Of a DNA stretch of 64,000 nucleotides, positions 28,884 through 38,171 are shown in pieces. Positions within the stretch are counted from its first letter, which is position 1, and each line of letters starts with the position of its first letter. Source of the stretch: Mucilaginibacter celer (GTDB taxonomy: Bacteria > Bacteroidota > Bacteroidia > Sphingobacteriales > Sphingobacteriaceae); the NCBI RefSeq assembly GCF_003576455.2, contig NZ_CP032869.1:496001-560000 (forward strand), given 5' to 3'. The notes beneath the pieces were generated by a model, which saw only the letters and a program-made list of their open reading frames with translations, was not told where the DNA came from and did no database searches. The position numbers were made by a program, and so were the translations under genes.

Positions 28884-28890
28884 GAATGAT

Positions 28891-29009
28891 GTCTGAACCG
28901 GGATTTGGGGAGATTTTTGGGATCACAGGATTTGATATGTTCTTATGTTAGATAGGACAAGAAAAAAATACCATAAATCCTAAAAATCTCCCCAAATCCC
29001 GGTTCAGAC
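28891..29009. repeat. GTCTGAACC palindromic element (copy E)
   Basis: A 119-bp element with perfect 28-bp inverted ends beginning GTCTGAACCGGGATTTGGGG and ending in the complement with GGTTCAGAC. It starts eight bases after the GH20 stop. A tail of CAATCAGCG/CAACGTAATC words follows at 29025-29062, as also seen after copies at 56196 and 63816. It fills much of the 278-bp gap before the kinase operon. Confidence 0.8.
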
Positions 29010-29161
29010 AAAATCAACCCACAAGCAATCAGCGCAATCAACGTAATCAAAAAAATCAGCGGTTTTTTTTTATATTTTTATACCAAACACTAATGCATGC
29101 GTTATGTTGAGTAAAAAGTTTTAATATTTGTTACCAATACTGATACCCCAAGTATAACTCA

Positions 29162-30595
29162 ATGAGCAAAGTATTTACTATTACCGAAGGATTGGAAAAC
29201 ATGGGGGCTTTACGAACGGGAGGCCAGGGCTCCGTTTATAAAGGTCGCCGTTATGGTCCGATAATTACCGCGGTAAAACTCCTGCCTACCCCCATACATA
29301 CCGAAAGTACCGACGATAAAAACTTCCGTAATTTTCAAAACGAGGTTGAAAAACTAAAAAAAGTAAACGAAGAACCTAACCCCAATGTGGTTAAGATCCT
29401 TAATTCGGGCATTACCGAAAGTGGTTCGTTCCCGTTTATTGAGATGGAGTTTATTGATGGACCGGATCTGGAAGATCTGCTGAAACCGCCGCACGAGCCT
29501 GTTTTTACTATTAAAGAGATCATTAAACTGGCCGATCAGCTGGCTAATGCGCTATCGCATTGCCATAAAGTATCGGTTAAACATGGCGATATCAAAAGCA
29601 ATAACGTAAAGTTTAATGTGCATACCGGTAACTATGTTCTGTTGGATTTTGGTCTTTCGGCTATGTCTGATGATCAGCGCCGTACCAGTATCCGCCATGC
29701 CGGGGCTATTGAGTTTATGGCACCCGAGCAAAACGAAGGACTGATGTATTTCCAGACCGACGTGTACAGCTACGGTATTATTTTATACGAACTGATAGCC
29801 GGCCGCGTGCCGTTCCCTCTAAAAGATAATGGCGAAACCGCCCGCACAGCCGTAATGCTGGCCCATATGGAGCTGGAAGTTCCGGACGCGATGGAGTTAA
29901 GGCGCAAAAACCTACCCGAAAGCTGGACGGAAGAGAAGCGTGAACTTGAAATGATGGTGCCTTCCTGGTTACTTCAAATACTTAGCAAGTGCCTGCAAAA
30001 GGATATCAACAACCGGTTTGCCAGTGGCATGGAGTTACAGGATGCTTTGGTACAGGGAAGTATTGGCGCAATCAATACCAGTCACCCGGATGATGCCTGG
30101 AACAGCGATGTTTTACTGAAAGAGAATGAACGCCTGCAAGGCCTGGTGTTGTATTACCAGGAGAACGAAGGAAAGCAACCGGCCCCAACTGTAGTTACTG
30201 CACCGGATGATCCAAGATCGGTACGGATGTCGAAACCGATTTTTATCATGTTTATGATATTACTTTGCGGCTTTACGGTGTTTTCGGCAGTGGTGATGGA
30301 TAAGTTTGGCGGCCGCATTTATCATGGTGTGGTAAACCGACTTTTTAAACCATCAAAAAAACAACAGGATACTACTACTACACAGGTGTCTGTGCCCACG
30401 CGAAGAGATACGCAGGAGCAGAAACCCAGTATTAAGCCTTTGGAGGAAGAACAAAACAGTAACATTCCACCTGAGGTTGATTCGACCACAGATTCGATTT
30501 TGAGAAATATACAACGGATTAAAAAGCGAAATCAGGACGCGCAGTTTTACCGCGACAGCGTGAAGAAGGCGGATACCTCCAACTTAAATTTTTAA
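29162..30595 (+). CDS. Transmembrane Ser/Thr protein kinase (PknB-like, no PASTA)
   Basis: A 477-residue Hanks-type kinase. Kinase domain about 10-295: glycine loop R-T-G-G-Q-G-S-V-Y-K, ATP-binding Lys39 (A-V-K-L), catalytic loop H141-G-D143-I-K-S-N-N, D162-F-G164 and A-P-E at 187-189. All catalytic residues are present, but the loop reads HGD, not HRD, so it is a non-RD kinase. One membrane segment lies at 359-379, then a polar tail of about 95 residues outside the cytoplasm, without PASTA repeats. It opens a compact operon with FHA proteins, a PP2C phosphatase and a SEDS-PBP fusion, so it probably controls septal or lateral wall synthesis. Confidence 0.93.
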   Translation: MSKVFTITEGLENMGALRTGGQGSVYKGRRYGPIITAVKLLPTPIHTESTDDKNFRNFQNEVEKLKKVNEEPNPNVVKILNSGITESGSFPFIEMEFIDGPDLEDLLKPPHEPVFTIKEIIKLADQLANALSHCHKVSVKHGDIKSNNVKFNVHTGNYVLLDFGLSAMSDDQRRTSIRHAGAIEFMAPEQNEGLMYFQTDVYSYGIILYELIAGRVPFPLKDNGETARTAVMLAHMELEVPDAMELRRKNLPESWTEEKRELEMMVPSWLLQILSKCLQKDINNRFASGMELQDALVQGSIGAINTSHPDDAWNSDVLLKENERLQGLVLYYQENEGKQPAPTVVTAPDDPRSVRMSKPIFIMFMILLCGFTVFSAVVMDKFGGRIYHGVVNRLFKPSKKQQDTTTTQVSVPTRRDTQEQKPSIKPLEEEQNSNIPPEVDSTTDSILRNIQRIKKRNQDAQFYRDSVKKADTSNLNF

Positions 30596-30613
30596 TGATT
30601 TAGTAAATTATAT

Positions 30614-31579
30614 ATGGAACCTAAATCAACATTCTGGCAACGCATCGGTTTGCAGGATTGGTTTTTACCCAACGGCAAGCCTCTGAATAAAGAGGCCGAA
30701 AAGGTGAAAGCCCTCACTCCGGACGATGTGTACCTGTACATTATTGAAAAATTCAAAGAATCGATCAAGCAGCTTTCATTTGCCGATAGGGTGGTTTTTT
30801 ACCACGAGTTTATCATCAGCTTTAATGAAGAGGATTACCAGGAGTTTGTGAATAACCGCTCGGGCTTGCTCGGCATCATCGTTAACGAATCGGTAAAGAA
30901 ATTTTATGAGCTGCTACGCGAATACCAGGAGGTAGGCAAAAAGGTAGAGCCATCAAGCTCAAAATGGGTATTCAGGCTGGTATCGCACCCCGATTATAAA
31001 CGTGGCGACAAAGGTTTTATAGGTAAACTATTGCCGGGCAGTACGGCGAAGAAAGAAGAAAACCTGCGGGTTACGTTCATCCCCCGCCAAACAGGTGTGG
31101 CCCAAACGTTGGATATCAGCAATGATGTGCTGAAGGGCTTCACCTACTATAGCGAGGGGTATTATGAGCTTCCTTATGCTAATGATCTGCATTATAACGA
31201 GCGGGAGGTATCTAAAGCGGGCAACAAAGTATTGGCGCGCCTGGAAACCATTATGCCCGATAAGCAATTTGTTGGCCGCAAGGTGGAGTACCTGATTAAA
31301 GATGACGACATCGTGGTATCAGGCTCGGACGAGGAAAGGGATGAGCAGGCAGTGTTTAAAGTGCCATCCGAATGGGTGAACACGCCGCACCTGCGCATCC
31401 GCCTTAATAAAGCCGATGGCAAGTTTTACATGGCCTCCTTTGGCGAACGCACGTTGATTAATGAACAGGAAGTTGCGCCAAGTGATGTAAACGCGCCGGT
31501 TTGGGTAGAACTGCCTTTTAACTCGAGGATTTTGCTTAACGGGATAGTAGGTATTAACATTTTCAAACCCGAACCATAA
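30614..31579 (+). CDS. Cytoplasmic protein with degenerate FHA-like C-terminal domain
   Basis: A 321-residue soluble protein, no signal or membrane segment. Residues 1-110 are helical and charged; the middle (about 125-215) is beta-rich (W-V-F-R-L-V-S-H-P-D-Y). The last 90 residues follow the order of FHA strands: T-P-H-L-R-I-R-L where FHA has S-R-x-H-A-x-I, D-G-K-F-Y-M-A-S-F-G-E, L-I-N-E-Q-E-V where FHA has N-G-T-x-V-N, and a final V-G-I-N-I-F strand. The G-R of strand 3 and the phosphothreonine-binding Ser/Arg/Asn are not evident, so binding to phosphopeptides is doubtful. It is 18 bp after the kinase. Role as scaffold or kinase substrate is an inference. Confidence 0.7.
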   Translation: MEPKSTFWQRIGLQDWFLPNGKPLNKEAEKVKALTPDDVYLYIIEKFKESIKQLSFADRVVFYHEFIISFNEEDYQEFVNNRSGLLGIIVNESVKKFYELLREYQEVGKKVEPSSSKWVFRLVSHPDYKRGDKGFIGKLLPGSTAKKEENLRVTFIPRQTGVAQTLDISNDVLKGFTYYSEGYYELPYANDLHYNEREVSKAGNKVLARLETIMPDKQFVGRKVEYLIKDDDIVVSGSDEERDEQAVFKVPSEWVNTPHLRIRLNKADGKFYMASFGERTLINEQEVAPSDVNAPVWVELPFNSRILLNGIVGINIFKPEP

Positions 31580-31680
31580 TGTCGCAAATATTATCAGTAG
31601 GGTTGTTGGCTATATGTGTGCTGTTATTAATAGCTCATTTTATCGACATAAAAAATTCCAGTAAAAACCATGGCAAGTAA
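31579..31680 (+). CDS. 33-residue single-span membrane microprotein
   Basis: A frame of 33 codons, M-S-Q-I-L-S-V-G-L-L-A-I-C-V-L-L-L-I-A-H then a polar tail with several Lys. Residues 4-21 make one full membrane helix; the tail I-D-I-K-N-S-S-K-N-H-G-K is positively charged and should be inside. Its ATG overlaps the stop of the previous gene (TAATG), and its end overlaps the start of the PP2C gene by 11 bp, so it fills the only gap between those two genes exactly. This fit argues for a real translated gene, perhaps a small subunit or regulator of the kinase/phosphatase/SEDS system. No family is recognised. Confidence 0.6.
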   Translation: MSQILSVGLLAICVLLLIAHFIDIKNSSKNHGK

Positions 31681-33103
31681 TTTTTTCGGAATAACGGATA
31701 CCGGTAAACAAAGGCAAAATAACGAAGACGTTTTTATTGCCGAAAAATCGGGCGATGGCAATTTTATTATTGCCTGTGTGATTGATGGGGTAGGCGGCTA
31801 CGCAGGCGGCGAAATTGCCGCCGAAATTGCCCGTGCCACCATTTTAGAGCAGCTGCAATACATAGCCGGCGATATTGTGCCCCTGCTGGTGAATACCTTT
31901 AAAATTGCCAATCAGCGTATTTATGATGAAAAGGCACAAAATAAAGAACTAAGCAGTATGGCCTGCGTGCTTACGCTGGTCGTTGCCGACTTGTTGAACA
32001 ATAAGTTTTACTACGCCCACGTAGGCGATACCCGCTTGTACCTGCTGCGCGATTATTCGCTGATAAAAATCTCTAAAGATCATTCATTTGTTGGTTTCCT
32101 GGAAGATTCCGGTCGCCTTAGCGAAGAGGCTGCTATGGACCACCCTAAGCGCAACGAAATAAATAAAGCCCTTGGGTTTACCCGGGAGATTGACCACGAT
32201 CCGGAATTTGTAGAAACCGGCAGTTCGCCATTTTTGCCCGGCGATATCCTGCTGATCTGCAGTGACGGGTTAACCGATCTGGTTGATAAAAGCAAAATTA
32301 CCAATATCCTCACCACCGGCGAAGATTTGCCCGCCAAGGGTAAAAAGCTAATTGAGGCGGCCAATAATAAAGGAGGCAAGGATAACGTAACCGTGGTGCT
32401 GGTACATAACGATAAAGAACGGAAACAGCACGCTACAACCAAGCCAACATCTACAGCCACAAAACCTGTTGAACAGCAGGAGGTAGTTGCCAAACCGGTT
32501 GCTCAAAAAGAGCAGACTCCCGCTACTGTGGTGAAAACCAAAGGTAACGGCGGTACAGTAGCTATACTAAGCATTTTGTGTTTTATATTTTTAGGCGGAT
32601 TTATCTGGCAGTTTAAAAAGAACAGCGAGTTTACGGTTATCCCCAAAAAAACGGATACACTGGCAGCGCAACCCATCAAAAACGCGCAGGAACTAAAATT
32701 ACAGGATACCATCAATAAGCTGAAAGGTAACACCCTGGTGCTCTCGGCAGCAGATTTTAAACAGCCCATTGTTTTAACGGATACGCTGCATATCAATAAG
32801 GATAGCATCTACATCAAAACAAAAGGCGAAATCATCTTCAAAAAAGATTCTACCTATAAAGGCCCGGCTATTGTGCTGGCTGCTAAATGTAAATATGTGG
32901 TTTTGGATAGTGTGGCCTTTGACGGTTTCAGGGTAGGTATTGCAACCCGCAACGATGCCCTGGTGCTTAAAAACGTACGTTTTAACAATTGCGCTATCCC
33001 TGTACTAACCGGTTACCTGTTGCCTAACATGAAATATATTTCGGGCAGATCATTAGGCAGCTTGTTTAAAGCCGATACCATCCCTTCAAAAACTACGCAC
33101 TGA
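31670..33103 (+). CDS. PP2C-type Ser/Thr phosphatase with transmembrane and beta-helix-like outer domain
   Basis: A 477-residue protein. Residues 1-245 are a PP2C/PstP phosphatase: N-N-E-D at 17-20, D39-G-V-G-G, V-G-D-T-R-L-Y, C-S-D-G-L-T-D-L and G-K-D-N-V-T-V, which supply the metal-binding aspartates. A Thr/Pro/Lys-rich linker leads to one membrane helix at 297-313. The outer 160 residues contain repeating short strands (I-Y-I-K-T-K-G-E-I-I-F, K-Y-V-V-L-D-S-V-A-F, A-L-V-L-K-N-V-R-F) like a right-handed beta-helix, a fold often used to bind glycans. It should reverse the phosphorylation made by the operon's kinase. It ends 3 bp before the fusion gene. Confidence 0.92.
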   Translation: MASNFFGITDTGKQRQNNEDVFIAEKSGDGNFIIACVIDGVGGYAGGEIAAEIARATILEQLQYIAGDIVPLLVNTFKIANQRIYDEKAQNKELSSMACVLTLVVADLLNNKFYYAHVGDTRLYLLRDYSLIKISKDHSFVGFLEDSGRLSEEAAMDHPKRNEINKALGFTREIDHDPEFVETGSSPFLPGDILLICSDGLTDLVDKSKITNILTTGEDLPAKGKKLIEAANNKGGKDNVTVVLVHNDKERKQHATTKPTSTATKPVEQQEVVAKPVAQKEQTPATVVKTKGNGGTVAILSILCFIFLGGFIWQFKKNSEFTVIPKKTDTLAAQPIKNAQELKLQDTINKLKGNTLVLSAADFKQPIVLTDTLHINKDSIYIKTKGEIIFKKDSTYKGPAIVLAAKCKYVVLDSVAFDGFRVGIATRNDALVLKNVRFNNCAIPVLTGYLLPNMKYISGRSLGSLFKADTIPSKTTH

Positions 33104-33106
33104 TAA

Positions 33107-36100
33107 ATGGCCCAGGAAAAAATTAAATCGCCCGGAAGGATGCTTGAACGTGTGTTCCTGCTGCTTACCGGCATCGTATTGGCCGTTTTATTTGTAAGGC
33201 TTTATAGTGTACAGCAACTTAAATTTGTTGATGTTGATAAACGCCTGAAGGACGGCACCATAGTAAACCTTAACGCGCCCAACACTGCCCAAAACGTAAA
33301 GGCGCTGCTGCAAAAAGGTTATTATTTTGATGATCCGAAAGATATAGACTACATCGAATCTGTAATTGCCGAACGTAAATCGGCCGGTGATGTGGTTGAT
33401 AACACCGGCGAACTGAACAAACGCAAATACTATGTTAATGCCGATGAGGCTTTTAATAAAGGTGGCGCGCTGTTTAAACAACGGGTGCTTACATCCCGCA
33501 CACTGTTGGGTTATACCGGCGATGATTCCATCCGTTTTGATCAGGAGCTGAAAAGCCCACCATCCTTAGGTGCCCAAACTGATCTTGGTCTTGGCGAGTA
33601 CAGCATCAAAGGCACCATCGAACATAAAGGCCAAGCTATCCCCGGTGTACTGGTAAAATTGACCATGATTTTGCCGCGCGACAGTATTTTTAGTGATGAG
33701 GAAACAGCAGCTAAATCAAGCTGGGCTGAAAATAGTTCGGCCTATAAAAAAGTGTACGTTGTAAATGATCAGCATAAAAAAGTACTGCAATCATTAACCG
33801 CTTTTGCCCGTACCGACGCAGCCGGAAGGTTTGTATTTGCCCAGCTACCTACGGGGAAAGCTTTTTCGGTACTGCCTATGCAACCCGGCTTTGAATTTGG
33901 CCGTTCGCAGGGTGTGGATGATTTGGAAAAAGATGTAAGTTTCAAATTTGCGCAAGCGCCGCACAGTATTAAACTACTTTCCACGCGCGATTTTAATATC
34001 CTTAAAAAAGAAGGTGCTTTTATTGTGCGTTACCAGGATGAGTTTAACGAATGGTACTGGATTATAGCAGGCAGTTTCTTTTTAGGCTTTATCCTGCTGC
34101 ACCTGCTGCTCAGCGCCCGTTACCCCGAGGCCGATCAGCTCATTTTGCCCTTGATTATGATGCTTACCGGCATCTCGTTTTTAACCCTGTTAAGTTTACA
34201 GGACCCTTTGCGTGATAGGTTTTTGGCAAAGGATACTTTAATCTATTTGGCCATTGGCGTTTTAGGTATTTGCCTTATCCAGCTATTCAATCTCCGCAAG
34301 CTAAACCCCGATTCGGGTTTTTACCGCCTGCTGATATTTAAATGGAGCAGAAGTGCGGCCAATGGCTGGCCATGGGCTATTGTGGCTATGGGCATTTTGT
34401 TCAGCACTATTTTATTTGGCTCGGGGCCTGAGGGTAGTGGGGTTAAGGTGAACCTGTTAGGTTTTCAGCCAAGCGAAATTGTTAAATACCTCATCGTTAT
34501 TTTCCTCGCGGGATTTTTTGCCACTAACGAGCGCTTTATCAGCCAGTACGCCAGTTGGGGTAAACGCTGGTCGTTTTTTTCTTTCGCGCTTATCGCCACC
34601 ATTATCACCCTGCTGCTGTTTTTGGTTTTGGGCGATTTGGGCCCGGCCATGGTGATCTGTTTTACGTTCATCATTTTGTTCTCCTTTTCGCGCGGCGACT
34701 TTTTGTATATGGCCGGCTTTGTAGTGCTGTTTGTATTGGCCACTTGGTTTTTTGATAATGTACTCATCAGCGCGGGTATTACCTTCTTTGTGCTGGGCGG
34801 TGTTGTTTTCTTTAGGCGGAGAAGGATGAGCGAGTCGGCTATAATGGCACTGGTGGTTATTACCGCTTTCCTCACTATTGATAAAATTCCAGGTCTCGAT
34901 AAAATCATCCCCGGTCCTGTGGAACGGTTGGTTGAACGTAAAGCCATCTGGCAGGATGCCTGGAATAACGAAGTTTACGGTGGCGACCAGGTAGCCAACG
35001 GCCTTTGGGCTATGGCCAGCGGCGGCGTAACCGGGCAGGGCGTAGGGCAGGGCTTTGCCAAAACCATCCCCGAAGCCCATACCGATATGATACTTCCATC
35101 CATCGGTGAAGAATTTGGCTGGGCCGGTATGGCAGCCGTGTTCATCCTGTTTTTGATGTACCTTCACCGTTCTATCATTATCGGCAGGCAAACGGGTATG
35201 CCGCTGTTGTTTTACCTGAGCGCGGGCATTGGCGTGTGTACCTTCGTGCAGTTTTTATTGATTGCCGGTGGTTCGATAGGGGCTTTGCCATTATCCGGTG
35301 TGTCTTTACCTTTTGAAAGTTACGGCGGTTCATCATTGGTGATTAACCTGCTGGCCGCCGGTTTCCTGCTATCCGTATCAAGGGTGAGGGGTACAGCTGT
35401 GCAGATGGATTACATCACCAAACAACAGGATAAAAACCTGGTACCGGCATTGGCCGCCGCACTGGCCGGTGTGGTGCTGTTGGTTGTGAATGTATCGCGC
35501 TATACTTCAAACAATAAACAATGGGTGGTAAAACCTGCCCTGGTTGCCGATAAAAGCGGCCTGCGCATGTTTAGCTATAACCCGCGCATAGCCATTTTGA
35601 TGAACAGGCTACAGGCCGGCACCATTTATGATCGTAACGGCTTAATCCTTGCCACAAGCAAGCCCGAACTCATCGAAAAACAAAGAAAAAAACTCAGCGA
35701 ATCGGGCATGCTGCATTATAACCTCGATTCTGCGATGCACAAAAGGCTCGACAGGTTTTACCCTTACGAGGAGCAAATGTTTTTCTGGACCGGCGACCAA
35801 AACACCGGCGTATTTAATGGCAGCACCAACGGCTACTTTGCCGAGTACGAACACGCTGCCGAACTTCGCGGTTTCCACATGCCTATCACCAGTTATAACG
35901 TAAAAGCCTCCCGCTACCAGGAAGACAGGTTTTTACCCCGCGGCATGAAAGAAATGAGCGTTGCCAAAAAAGATTACAGCGCCCTGGCTACCCTGCTTGT
36001 AAGCGATATTAATGGCCCCGAAGTGGCAGCCTTTAAAAATAAAAACCGCGATGTGAAGCTTACTATGGATGCCGATCTGCAAACCAGCATCCAGCAATCA

Positions 36101-37198
36101 ATGGCTTCGGATACTTCTTTATTGGATAATAGGGTATCGGTGGTGATTATGGAAGCTGGTACCGGCGATGTACTTACATCGGCACAATACCCATTGCCGC
36201 CTATCCATAACTGGGATCAGTTGACCATGCCGCTGGCCGATCAGAATAAACTGGCCACCTGGGTAACCACTACCGATCTGGGTTTTACCTATGCCAGTCA
36301 GCCAGGTTCTACAGCAAAAGTGCTTACGGCTATGTCGGCATTTAATAAACTGGGCATAGGAGCTTCAGAAATTCAGTATCATGTAAGCACCGAAGAGCGG
36401 ATCCGTACAAAAGGCATCGAACCGGACGAAACCGGGATGATCACCATGGAGCGGGCCATTGCCAAATCAAACAACGTATACTTTATTAAACTGGCCAACC
36501 AGGAACATCTGCAGGAATACATGGCTACCCTGTATATGAAAACCGGTATGTTTTTACGCGGAGTTGGCGGTTATTACTACAACAAGCCACCGCAAAACGA
36601 TGCCCAGGAAGAAAAATGGCGCACCCTGTGGCGCAAAACCGAGTTTGATACCCGGCCACGGTACGATCCTAATAACATCCATAAAACCAGGGCCAAAGGT
36701 ATTTCGGGTATGGCCTGGGGGCAGGGCGAATTGATAGCCACACCGGCGGCTGTAGCCAGGCTGGTATCGGGCGTGGCAAACCAGGGCCTGTTGCTGCCCA
36801 ACAGGTTTGCGCTAAAAATAGCCGATTCGACGGTGGCCGTGCAGCATGGTATTAAGCTGGCCGAAGATCCGCGCTACGCCGGTTTATTAACGCAGTACAT
36901 GATAGAGCAAAGCGCGCCGAAAGAGCCTATATTAGGCATTAAGGTGGCCGGTAAAACCGGTACGCCCGAGCGTATTGTTCACAATGTGAGCGTAAACGAT
37001 GGCTGGTATGTGTTTTTTGCCCCGGAGGTAAAAGGCAATGGCAATATGGTGGTTTGTATCCGGATAGAATCGACCAGAGGATCGTCGGACGCGGTACACC
37101 TCGCCGCAAACCATGTGATCCCATTTTTATTGAAAAAGGGTTATATTAAAAGTATGGCGCCAAAAAGTGCAGAGGCCGAAACCATAGATAACGAATAG
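33107..37198 (+). CDS. SEDS (RodA/FtsW) glycosyltransferase fused to class B penicillin-binding protein
   Basis: A 1363-residue protein joining both peptidoglycan polymerase partners. Order: membrane helix 13-32; outer region to about 315, including a carboxypeptidase-regulatory-like domain (160-285, Y-S-I-K-G-T-I-E-H-K-G-Q-A-I-P-G and T-D-A-A-G-R-F-V-F); SEDS core 318-765 with about ten helices, Q-P-S-E-I-V-K at 454-460, G-D-L-G-P-A at 509, the loop E656-A-H-T-D660-M carrying the catalytic-type Asp, and F-E-S-Y-G-G-S-S at 736; another helix 779-796; then the transpeptidase domain from about 836 with S1068-T-A-K1071, S1121-N-N and K1283-T-G. All key residues are intact. It polymerises lipid II and cross-links glycan. 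The C-terminal PBP lies outside the membrane. Confidence 0.95.
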   Translation: MAQEKIKSPGRMLERVFLLLTGIVLAVLFVRLYSVQQLKFVDVDKRLKDGTIVNLNAPNTAQNVKALLQKGYYFDDPKDIDYIESVIAERKSAGDVVDNTGELNKRKYYVNADEAFNKGGALFKQRVLTSRTLLGYTGDDSIRFDQELKSPPSLGAQTDLGLGEYSIKGTIEHKGQAIPGVLVKLTMILPRDSIFSDEETAAKSSWAENSSAYKKVYVVNDQHKKVLQSLTAFARTDAAGRFVFAQLPTGKAFSVLPMQPGFEFGRSQGVDDLEKDVSFKFAQAPHSIKLLSTRDFNILKKEGAFIVRYQDEFNEWYWIIAGSFFLGFILLHLLLSARYPEADQLILPLIMMLTGISFLTLLSLQDPLRDRFLAKDTLIYLAIGVLGICLIQLFNLRKLNPDSGFYRLLIFKWSRSAANGWPWAIVAMGILFSTILFGSGPEGSGVKVNLLGFQPSEIVKYLIVIFLAGFFATNERFISQYASWGKRWSFFSFALIATIITLLLFLVLGDLGPAMVICFTFIILFSFSRGDFLYMAGFVVLFVLATWFFDNVLISAGITFFVLGGVVFFRRRRMSESAIMALVVITAFLTIDKIPGLDKIIPGPVERLVERKAIWQDAWNNEVYGGDQVANGLWAMASGGVTGQGVGQGFAKTIPEAHTDMILPSIGEEFGWAGMAAVFILFLMYLHRSIIIGRQTGMPLLFYLSAGIGVCTFVQFLLIAGGSIGALPLSGVSLPFESYGGSSLVINLLAAGFLLSVSRVRGTAVQMDYITKQQDKNLVPALAAALAGVVLLVVNVSRYTSNNKQWVVKPALVADKSGLRMFSYNPRIAILMNRLQAGTIYDRNGLILATSKPELIEKQRKKLSESGMLHYNLDSAMHKRLDRFYPYEEQMFFWTGDQNTGVFNGSTNGYFAEYEHAAELRGFHMPITSYNVKASRYQEDRFLPRGMKEMSVAKKDYSALATLLVSDINGPEVAAFKNKNRDVKLTMDADLQTSIQQSMASDTSLLDNRVSVVIMEAGTGDVLTSAQYPLPPIHNWDQLTMPLADQNKLATWVTTTDLGFTYASQPGSTAKVLTAMSAFNKLGIGASEIQYHVSTEERIRTKGIEPDETGMITMERAIAKSNNVYFIKLANQEHLQEYMATLYMKTGMFLRGVGGYYYNKPPQNDAQEEKWRTLWRKTEFDTRPRYDPNNIHKTRAKGISGMAWGQGELIATPAAVARLVSGVANQGLLLPNRFALKIADSTVAVQHGIKLAEDPRYAGLLTQYMIEQSAPKEPILGIKVAGKTGTPERIVHNVSVNDGWYVFFAPEVKGNGNMVVCIRIESTRGSSDAVHLAANHVIPFLLKKGYIKSMAPKSAEAETIDNE

Positions 37199-37222
37199 TG
37201 TTTAAGCAGAAAGGAATAGCGT

Positions 37223-38011
37223 ATGGTATTTAATTTATTCAGAAAAAGTGACGATAATCAGCCTCATGATGTGAAAAGTCTTCGCGAGGCGATACTGCGT
37301 TTCATCAAAGAATCGTTACAAAAAATAGAAGGCGGCGAAGGCGGCCATATCAAGGAGCTTAAGCTTTTTATCGATAACCATACCGAAGATCTCAGCATGT
37401 ATGAAGGTGCTGTTTATATCCACGATAAGCAGTTGTTTAAAAACGAAATCCAACGCATAGCCGATGATTTTGCCATCAACCTGCCCGATGACTGGACGCT
37501 GGATGTTGACTTTACCGACCGCCTCCCATCCGATGCCCGCCGCGCTAATGACCTGGATGTGGCCTTTATCATGCACACCCGCAAGCAGGTAGCCCATAAT
37601 TCGGCATCGTTTGTAGCTTATTTAAGGATCCTGAACGGCGAAGCCGAACAGGAAGAATACCTGATCAAAGCCACCGATCCGAAACTGAACATCGGCAGAG
37701 ATAAAAAATCGGTTACCGAAAACGGCTCGTTCCGGTTAAACCAACTCGTTTTCCCAGGTGATAGCAAGGATGAAAGCAATAAATACATCAGTCGCCAGCA
37801 TGCCCATATCGAGTTTGATATGGAAAGCGAGCGTTTTATGATTTTTGCAGATGATGGCGGCGTACCTCCACGCAATAAAACCAAGATCCATGTAGCTGCT
37901 GATGGCAGAATGATCAAGCTAAATTCCACCCAGATAGGCCACCCACTTCATGAAGGCGACCAGGTTATTTTAGGGGAATCGGCGGTGTTTTTGTTTAGTG
38001 CGGTGAAATAA
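37223..38011 (+). CDS. FHA-domain protein (FhaA/FhaB-like)
   Basis: A 262-residue cytoplasmic protein. Residues 1-110 form an alpha/beta N-terminal region that could correspond to the FhaA N-terminal domain of actinobacteria, though I cannot confirm the match. The FHA domain covers about 145-262: G158-R159 in L-N-I-G-R-D, S190-R-Q-H193-A-H-I and a late L-H-E-G-D-Q-V-I-L-G-E. The phosphothreonine-binding Gly, Arg, Ser and His are present; the usual N-G-T is replaced by R-N-K-T. It probably binds phosphothreonines made by the operon's kinase and links them to the wall machinery. It starts 24 bp after the fusion gene and closes the operon. Confidence 0.9.
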   Translation: MVFNLFRKSDDNQPHDVKSLREAILRFIKESLQKIEGGEGGHIKELKLFIDNHTEDLSMYEGAVYIHDKQLFKNEIQRIADDFAINLPDDWTLDVDFTDRLPSDARRANDLDVAFIMHTRKQVAHNSASFVAYLRILNGEAEQEEYLIKATDPKLNIGRDKKSVTENGSFRLNQLVFPGDSKDESNKYISRQHAHIEFDMESERFMIFADDGGVPPRNKTKIHVAADGRMIKLNSTQIGHPLHEGDQVILGESAVFLFSAVK

Positions 38012-38050: not shown

Positions 38051-38171
38051 ATTCCCTCCCCTGGGAGGGTGTAGGGAGGGGTTTGGCCGCTATGTAAGCC
38101 AACAAGTATAGCGTACAAACCCCTCCCTGCCACTACACAATCCCCCCGCACCCCTCCCTTGGGAGGGAATT
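38051..38171. repeat. CCCTCCC-rich palindromic repeat (copy 2)
   Basis: A palindrome with arms ATTCCCTCCCCTGGGAGGG and CCCTCCCTTGGGAGGGAAT and inner GTAGGGAGGGGTTTG/CAAACCCCTCCCTGC. It lies 40 bases after the FHA gene and could end the kinase-SEDS operon transcript. Copies at 18597 and 60671 share the same plan. Confidence 0.75.

Follow-up and report, generated by a model that had tools for sequence, protein, structure and literature searches.

A conserved kinase, phosphatase and FHA operon encoding a third SEDS–PBP synthase in Mucilaginibacter celer

Does a Gram-negative bacterium possess a counterpart of the actinobacterial operon in which Ser/Thr kinases, a PP2C phosphatase and FHA proteins are encoded beside a SEDS polymerase and a transpeptidase, and if so what does it add to the ordinary enzymes of elongation and division? 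The question is raised by positions 29162..38011 of a window from Mucilaginibacter celer (the whole stretch of DNA analysed, 64,000 nucleotides, positions 496,001 to 560,000 of NZ_CP032869.1). The list of open reading frames (ORFs) places here six genes on the + strand, separated by at most 24 bp or overlapping, in the order kinase (P0001), FhaA-like protein (P0002), micropeptide (P0003), PP2C phosphatase (P0004), SEDS–PBP fusion (P0005) and FHA protein (P0006). An earlier, sequence-only reading had proposed this six-gene operon, with its 33-residue peptide, and had likened it to the actinobacterial pkn/pstP/rodA/pbpA/fha locus; the first claim is confirmed and the second is supported by gene order, by the FhaA-like N-terminal domain of P0002 and by SEDS trees. 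The operon is real, widely conserved and a variant of the known actinobacterial type. We consider it likely that this operon, conserved in Bacteroidota and Acidobacteriota, serves a third SEDS–PBP synthase and is probably the Gram-negative branch of the actinobacterial operon, with a predicted switch based on threonine phosphorylation. No description of a Gram-negative operon of this type was found among the open-licence papers searched.

Conservation of the operon

Relatives were found by querying with the fused protein, and their loci by a scan with two peptide patterns in which 80 of 250 relatives were kept, so that the breadth given here is a lower bound. The scan of named genomes returned at least 80 loci, for example in Mucilaginibacter, Pedobacter, Daejeonella, Spirosoma, Larkinella, Fibrella, the Chitinophagaceae and Roseithermus; the titles of eleven records (L042–L052) name Acidobacteria or one of their subgroups. 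Adding the window and 12 stretches obtained earlier, and removing two duplicates (L041 and L119) from the synteny and micropeptide counts, gave 91 loci. An ORF of more than 850 residues is present in 93 of 93 loci, and the 850-residue limit removed none.

Among loci with enough flanking sequence, a PP2C gene lies upstream of the fusion in 68 of 76, an FhaA-like gene is present in 70 of 76 and an FHA gene follows in 82 of 84, the labels being taken from iterated profiles whose last round overlaps the FhaA-like and FHA families. The full set, kinase included, occurs in 62 of the 72 loci with long flanks and in two phyla, and the conservation in relatives, without which the earlier reading would have been refuted by its own terms, is borne out. 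The genes flanking the operon differ between loci. Sampling is uneven, with many Pedobacter, Mucilaginibacter and Spirosoma, and the counts are therefore not independent events.

In Roseithermus (L031 and L041) the PP2C is fused ahead of the SEDS–PBP chain in a single polypeptide, a 1384-residue ORF, and the same arrangement is found in two of 120 listed entries, 98% and 82% identical to the Roseithermus protein. The 137 kb plasmid unnamed7 of Spirosoma oryzicola (L122; NZ_CP089545.1, 69767–80323) carries FHA, PP2C, two kinase, fusion and FHA genes. Since it can be plasmid-borne, the operon is probably able to move between replicons.

The family also shows some local variation. The FHA protein that follows the Roseithermus fusion has a HEPN_Swt1-like N-terminal domain (7.4e-22). 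Two genomes, G298 (the source of L046) and G131 (L028 and L032), each encode two different SEDS–PBP fusions, the second of G131 (L032, on a 14.8 kb contig) lacking the PP2C and FHA genes that normally lie nearby. A second kinase gene directly follows the FHA gene in L021, L022, L023, L070, L087, L103 and L118, all from Mucilaginibacter or assigned to the same genus; the window is without it.

Relation to the actinobacterial operon

The pstP operon of Mycobacterium smegmatis is an fhaA–fhaB–pstP–rodA–pbpA–pknA–pknB locus (PMC6554272), and we observed the actinobacterial locus in Actinomyces oris (L138), Nonomuraea (L121), Arthrobacter (L139) and Tsukamurella (L156). The two operons share a core order of FhaA, a membrane piece, PP2C, SEDS and PBP, with a kinase whose position varies; both appear to encode an adaptor combining an FhaA_N-like domain with an FHA domain, and their SEDS proteins fall into one deep group.

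The adaptor, P0002 (30614..31579), has relatives at 87% identity or more that include several named Mucilaginibacter. Its N-terminal domain (residues 28–190, 30695..31183) was modelled, and for the predicted structure the rank-1 match in the PDB, by Foldseek and VIA, is 2LC0 (Rv0020c_Nter, the N-terminal domain of FhaA). A sub-threshold FhaA_N signal is present in 15 of 15 relatives from outside the Bacteroidia. The FHA domain that follows (residues 202–321, 31217..31576) is degenerate and appears to have lost its phosphothreonine site in this lineage. As single sequences, neither P0002 nor P0006 matched any PDB sequence at E 10; profile searches found FHA domains, and profile A3 also returned a few weak, unrelated matches.

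The next gene, P0003 (31579..31680), encodes a single-pass membrane micropeptide of 33 residues and occupies the position of actinobacterial FhaB. A membrane ORF of 22–43 residues lies between the FhaA-like and PP2C genes in 70 of 73 loci, compared with 4% of shuffled segments, and all four FhaB proteins examined start with a hydrophobic stretch. So regular a micropeptide may be an unannotated subunit of the wall synthase.

The SEDS cut was passed by 87 of 93 fusions, of which 26 and 14 were placed in a first and a larger SEDS tree, respectively. The larger tree unites the SEDS part of the fusions with RodA of actinobacteria and separates both from canonical RodA and FtsW, with a support of 100/99. 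An approximately unbiased (AU) test rejects a grouping of the fusion with canonical RodA in the larger tree (p 0.012) and is borderline in the first (0.051). Operon context was seen for the RodA proteins of Nonomuraea, A. oris and Tsukamurella, Streptantibioticus (L155) being left out of this check; neither FhaA nor PstP was found within about 5 kb of RodA in Streptomyces (L136) and Embleya (L137). A motif count revealed a signature residue common to fused and actinobacterial SEDS; in the leucine count, 24 of 44 canonical rows did not fit the expression searched for and give no information. The length of the loop near the catalytic aspartate was tried as a signature and dropped, as it separates the groups poorly: all 87 of 87 fusions have a loop of 14 residues, and its length is 14 in four and 15 in two of six actinobacterial or Monoglobus proteins, and, for 44 canonical rows, 15 in 18, 16 in eight, 17 in 13, nine in three and unread in two.

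The differences are also clear. The actinobacterial rodA and pbpA are separate genes, whereas here a single 1363-residue ORF encodes both activities behind an added N-terminal domain. PknB bears PASTA domains and the present kinase does not; an FHA-bearing FhaB lies between fhaA and pstP, in place of which we find a bare membrane peptide; and a second FHA protein of different build is encoded downstream. Moreover, the host has a separate canonical RodA and PBP2. Among other systems, the clostridial Monoglobus pectinilyticus (L144) has a gene row in which FHA is immediately followed by SEDS and PBP, and its SEDS falls with the kinase-linked SEDS in the trees, but SEDS and PBP are separate and neither PP2C nor kinase is annotated in the 6.7 kb fetched, for which the gene table is incomplete. 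Other single-ORF SEDS–PBP fusions, which likewise unite polymerase and transpeptidase in one chain, exist according to PMC10449877, where the Rhodococcus RHA1 genome is cited.

Because of the shared core order, the FhaA-like domain and the SEDS trees, common descent with the actinobacterial fhaA–pstP–rodA–pbpA–pkn operon is probable, although not proven. Several observations weigh against it. P0002 itself has no FhaA_N match, and direct comparisons of its N-terminal domain with FhaA give weak matches. Long stems and branches weaken the SEDS trees, and trees of the PBP half, the second of which was built with the organism's own class A-like PBPs dropped, leave the placement of the fusion unsettled. 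No PASTA domain was matched in the domain scan of P0001, nor in any of ten kinases scanned from relatives, and the N-terminal domain of P0006 is unrelated to FhaA. These points favour convergent assembly, in which a local SEDS–PBP fusion gathered generic kinase, PP2C and FHA genes, and which might still leave the synthase under phosphorylation control. We regard this as unlikely, given that the core order matches that of actinobacteria, that the FhaA_N signal recurs in every relative from outside the Bacteroidia and is joined by the rank-1 fold match, that the AU test parts the fusion from canonical RodA in the larger tree, and that a signature residue is shared.

A predicted phosphorylation switch

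P0001 (29162..30595) belongs to the PF00069 family and is the best of four kinases that pass this model genome-wide. Its kinase domain (residues 18–287) retains the AVK, HGDIKSNN, DFG and APE motifs, and a single transmembrane segment is predicted at about 360–378, with a short tail beyond the membrane. P0004 (31670..33103), the only PF13672 match of the genome, scores 206.4 bits (E 4.4e-61) against the Stp1/PstP-type PP2C model NF033484, just under the curated cut-off of 230 bits. Its catalytic domain (about residues 9–246) is followed by a linker, a predicted transmembrane segment (294–312) and a C-terminal part with a weak beta-helix-like signal (a pectate-lyase-like match, E 0.049); a Beta_helix Pfam match occurs in four of 24 PP2Cs. 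Both proteins retain the motifs of their families. A threonine-rich linker was considered as a docking site and set aside, as the difference in composition is too small to conclude (8.8% threonine in the PP2C linker versus 5.7% in the catalytic part; 5.9% versus 5.4% for the kinase).

The candidate reader is P0006 (37223..38011), for which the genome has no second PF00498 match at E 0.1 and in which the G-R and S-R-x-H residues are invariant across a 43-member alignment. We rejected its assignment as FhaA: the N-terminal domain matches neither FhaA nor P0002, and a single member of the 43 has a weak FhaA_N match (0.14).

Control of wall synthesis by this kinase and phosphatase is predicted from the protein sequences, and may operate as follows. 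An envelope cue, sensed by the kinase tail that extends past the membrane, would lead the enzyme to phosphorylate threonine on itself, on the PP2C linker and/or on the synthase or the lipid II supply. P0006 would read the phosphothreonine and, with P0002 as a scaffold, keep the fused synthase where it is needed or activate it there; erasing the mark and resetting the switch would fall to the PP2C, which also has a domain past the membrane. The fusion may couple polymerization to cross-linking 1:1, in which case one decision would set off both. The parts of the kinase, PP2C and synthase that lie beyond the membrane are candidate sensing sites. For comparison, the mycobacterial lipid II flippase MviN is bound, once phosphorylated, by FhaA, which also has a role in polar elongation (PMC11898655).

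A bolder proposal, which we advance tentatively and with rather less than even confidence, is that these enzymes form a third, anciently separate kind of SEDS–class B PBP pair next to those of the Rod system and the divisome, gated by a kinase, served by an FhaA-type adaptor and a PP2C eraser, and with an obligatory micropeptide that would be the anchor of a lost FhaB. Actinobacterial RodA/PbpA would then be the Gram-positive branch and the fusion the Gram-negative one, accessory and even plasmid-borne.

It is common for kinases, PP2Cs and FHA proteins to have many targets. This would suit a general envelope or stress hub, in which the synthase is one output or is merely co-transcribed, and three loci of one genus (L027, L028 and L030), where the fusion lies with FHA genes and no PP2C or kinase nearby, likewise count against a switch devoted to wall synthesis. 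We judge such a hub improbable, since the linkage is tight across two phyla despite changing flanks, the Roseithermus PP2C is fused to the synthase and the whole set is found on one plasmid.

The synthase beside the elongation and division loci

P0005 (33107..37198) combines a peptidoglycan polymerase and a DD-transpeptidase. Hydropathy indicates two transmembrane segments about 280 residues apart, followed by the SEDS membrane domain, a further transmembrane segment and a class B transpeptidase; the sidedness of these parts is predicted. The extra N-terminal domain (about residues 36–315, 33212..34051), probably periplasmic, has a weak CarboxypepD_reg-like match (PF13620, E 0.039). The SEDS domain (about residues 344–760, 34136..35386) scores 143.1 bits against PF01098 (cut-off 26.4) and the transpeptidase domain (residues 1011–1324, 36137..37078) 75.7 bits against PF00905 (cut-off 22.1), with STAK at 1068, SNN at 1121 and KTGT at 1283. 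In the alignment the equivalents of Escherichia coli RodA Glu114, Lys117 and Asp159, which we take to be functional positions, are conserved. Asp660 aligns with Asp262 of E. coli RodA, a catalytic residue according to PMC10449877. The scores against the RodA/FtsW equivalogs TIGR02614 (152.7 of 337.5 bits) and TIGR02210 (123.4 of 336.7 bits) both fall short.

With catalytic motifs in both halves, the fusion could be thought the housekeeping synthase of elongation or division. The genome, a single contig of 7.15 Mb, argues strongly otherwise: FtsW, RodA and transpeptidases are encoded separately from P0005, MreB, MreC, PBP2 and RodA in one gene row and FtsI, FtsW, FtsA and FtsZ in another (Pfam scan of neighbours; no Pfam match was obtained for the genes in the mreD and ftsQ positions, which, with the intervening mur genes, are named by position and appearance only). 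Because these loci are present, P0005 is the third SEDS–class B PBP of the genome. The canonical pairs RodA–PBP2 (mreBCD) and FtsW–FtsI (dcw) share its chemistry, but are separate genes on the other side of the SEDS tree. The sequence-only reading had set the fusion apart from the standard rodA and ftsW/ftsI machines, and so it proved; that it might be the sole SEDS/PBP of the genome is contradicted. As an additional C-terminal feature, FtsI (L033:17218–19317) carries a PASTA domain (6.7e-11), which the operon kinase lacks.

The distribution of the fusion is patchy. It is present in 13 of 19 same-genus genomes and 25 of 151 family genomes, and absent from the other six of the 19, these being the genomes listed, with same-genus ones standing first. 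It occurs in 12 of 296 sampled Bacteroidota and, if the genome of the query is included, in six of 199 genomes in the Acidobacteriota sample. In a second same-genus set eight of 13 genomes have the fusion, and seven of the eight also have separate FtsW and RodA; the eighth, for which the two are not both shown, is 58% complete. None of eight same-class genomes in this comparison has the fusion. The fused synthase operon is therefore accessory, and the housekeeping reading, very improbable given the canonical loci, was rejected.

As far as is known, most work on phosphorylation control of SEDS synthases has come from actinobacteria and Firmicutes, in which some components are essential and therefore difficult to analyse. 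The related set described here seems to be dispensable and self-contained in Gram-negatives that keep the ordinary elongation and division enzymes, and its action could therefore be accessible by simple deletion; a Gram-negative relative would also add evolutionary depth.

That the operon belongs to type VI secretion or to an antiphage kinase system of the PpkA/PppA/Fha kind, with the synthase as passenger, is hardly credible; this reading was rejected, as the kinase scores on the PADLOC models mad6 and PD-T4-6 as Ser/Thr kinases generally would, only the PP2C among the other five proteins has a PADLOC match, a weak one (26 bits), and the scanned neighbours encode a GH20 hexosaminidase, a glyoxalase and an esterase, with flanks that vary in relatives.

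Just 5' of the operon (28890–29010) lies a 34-nucleotide inverted repeat, 97% complementary with a spacer of 53 nucleotides. Counting itself, the stretch that contains it matches 106 places in the genome; it is thus an interspersed, genome-wide repeat and was not taken as a regulatory element. Two nested inverted repeats on the 3' side (38051–38170) may be an interspersed repeat or a terminator.

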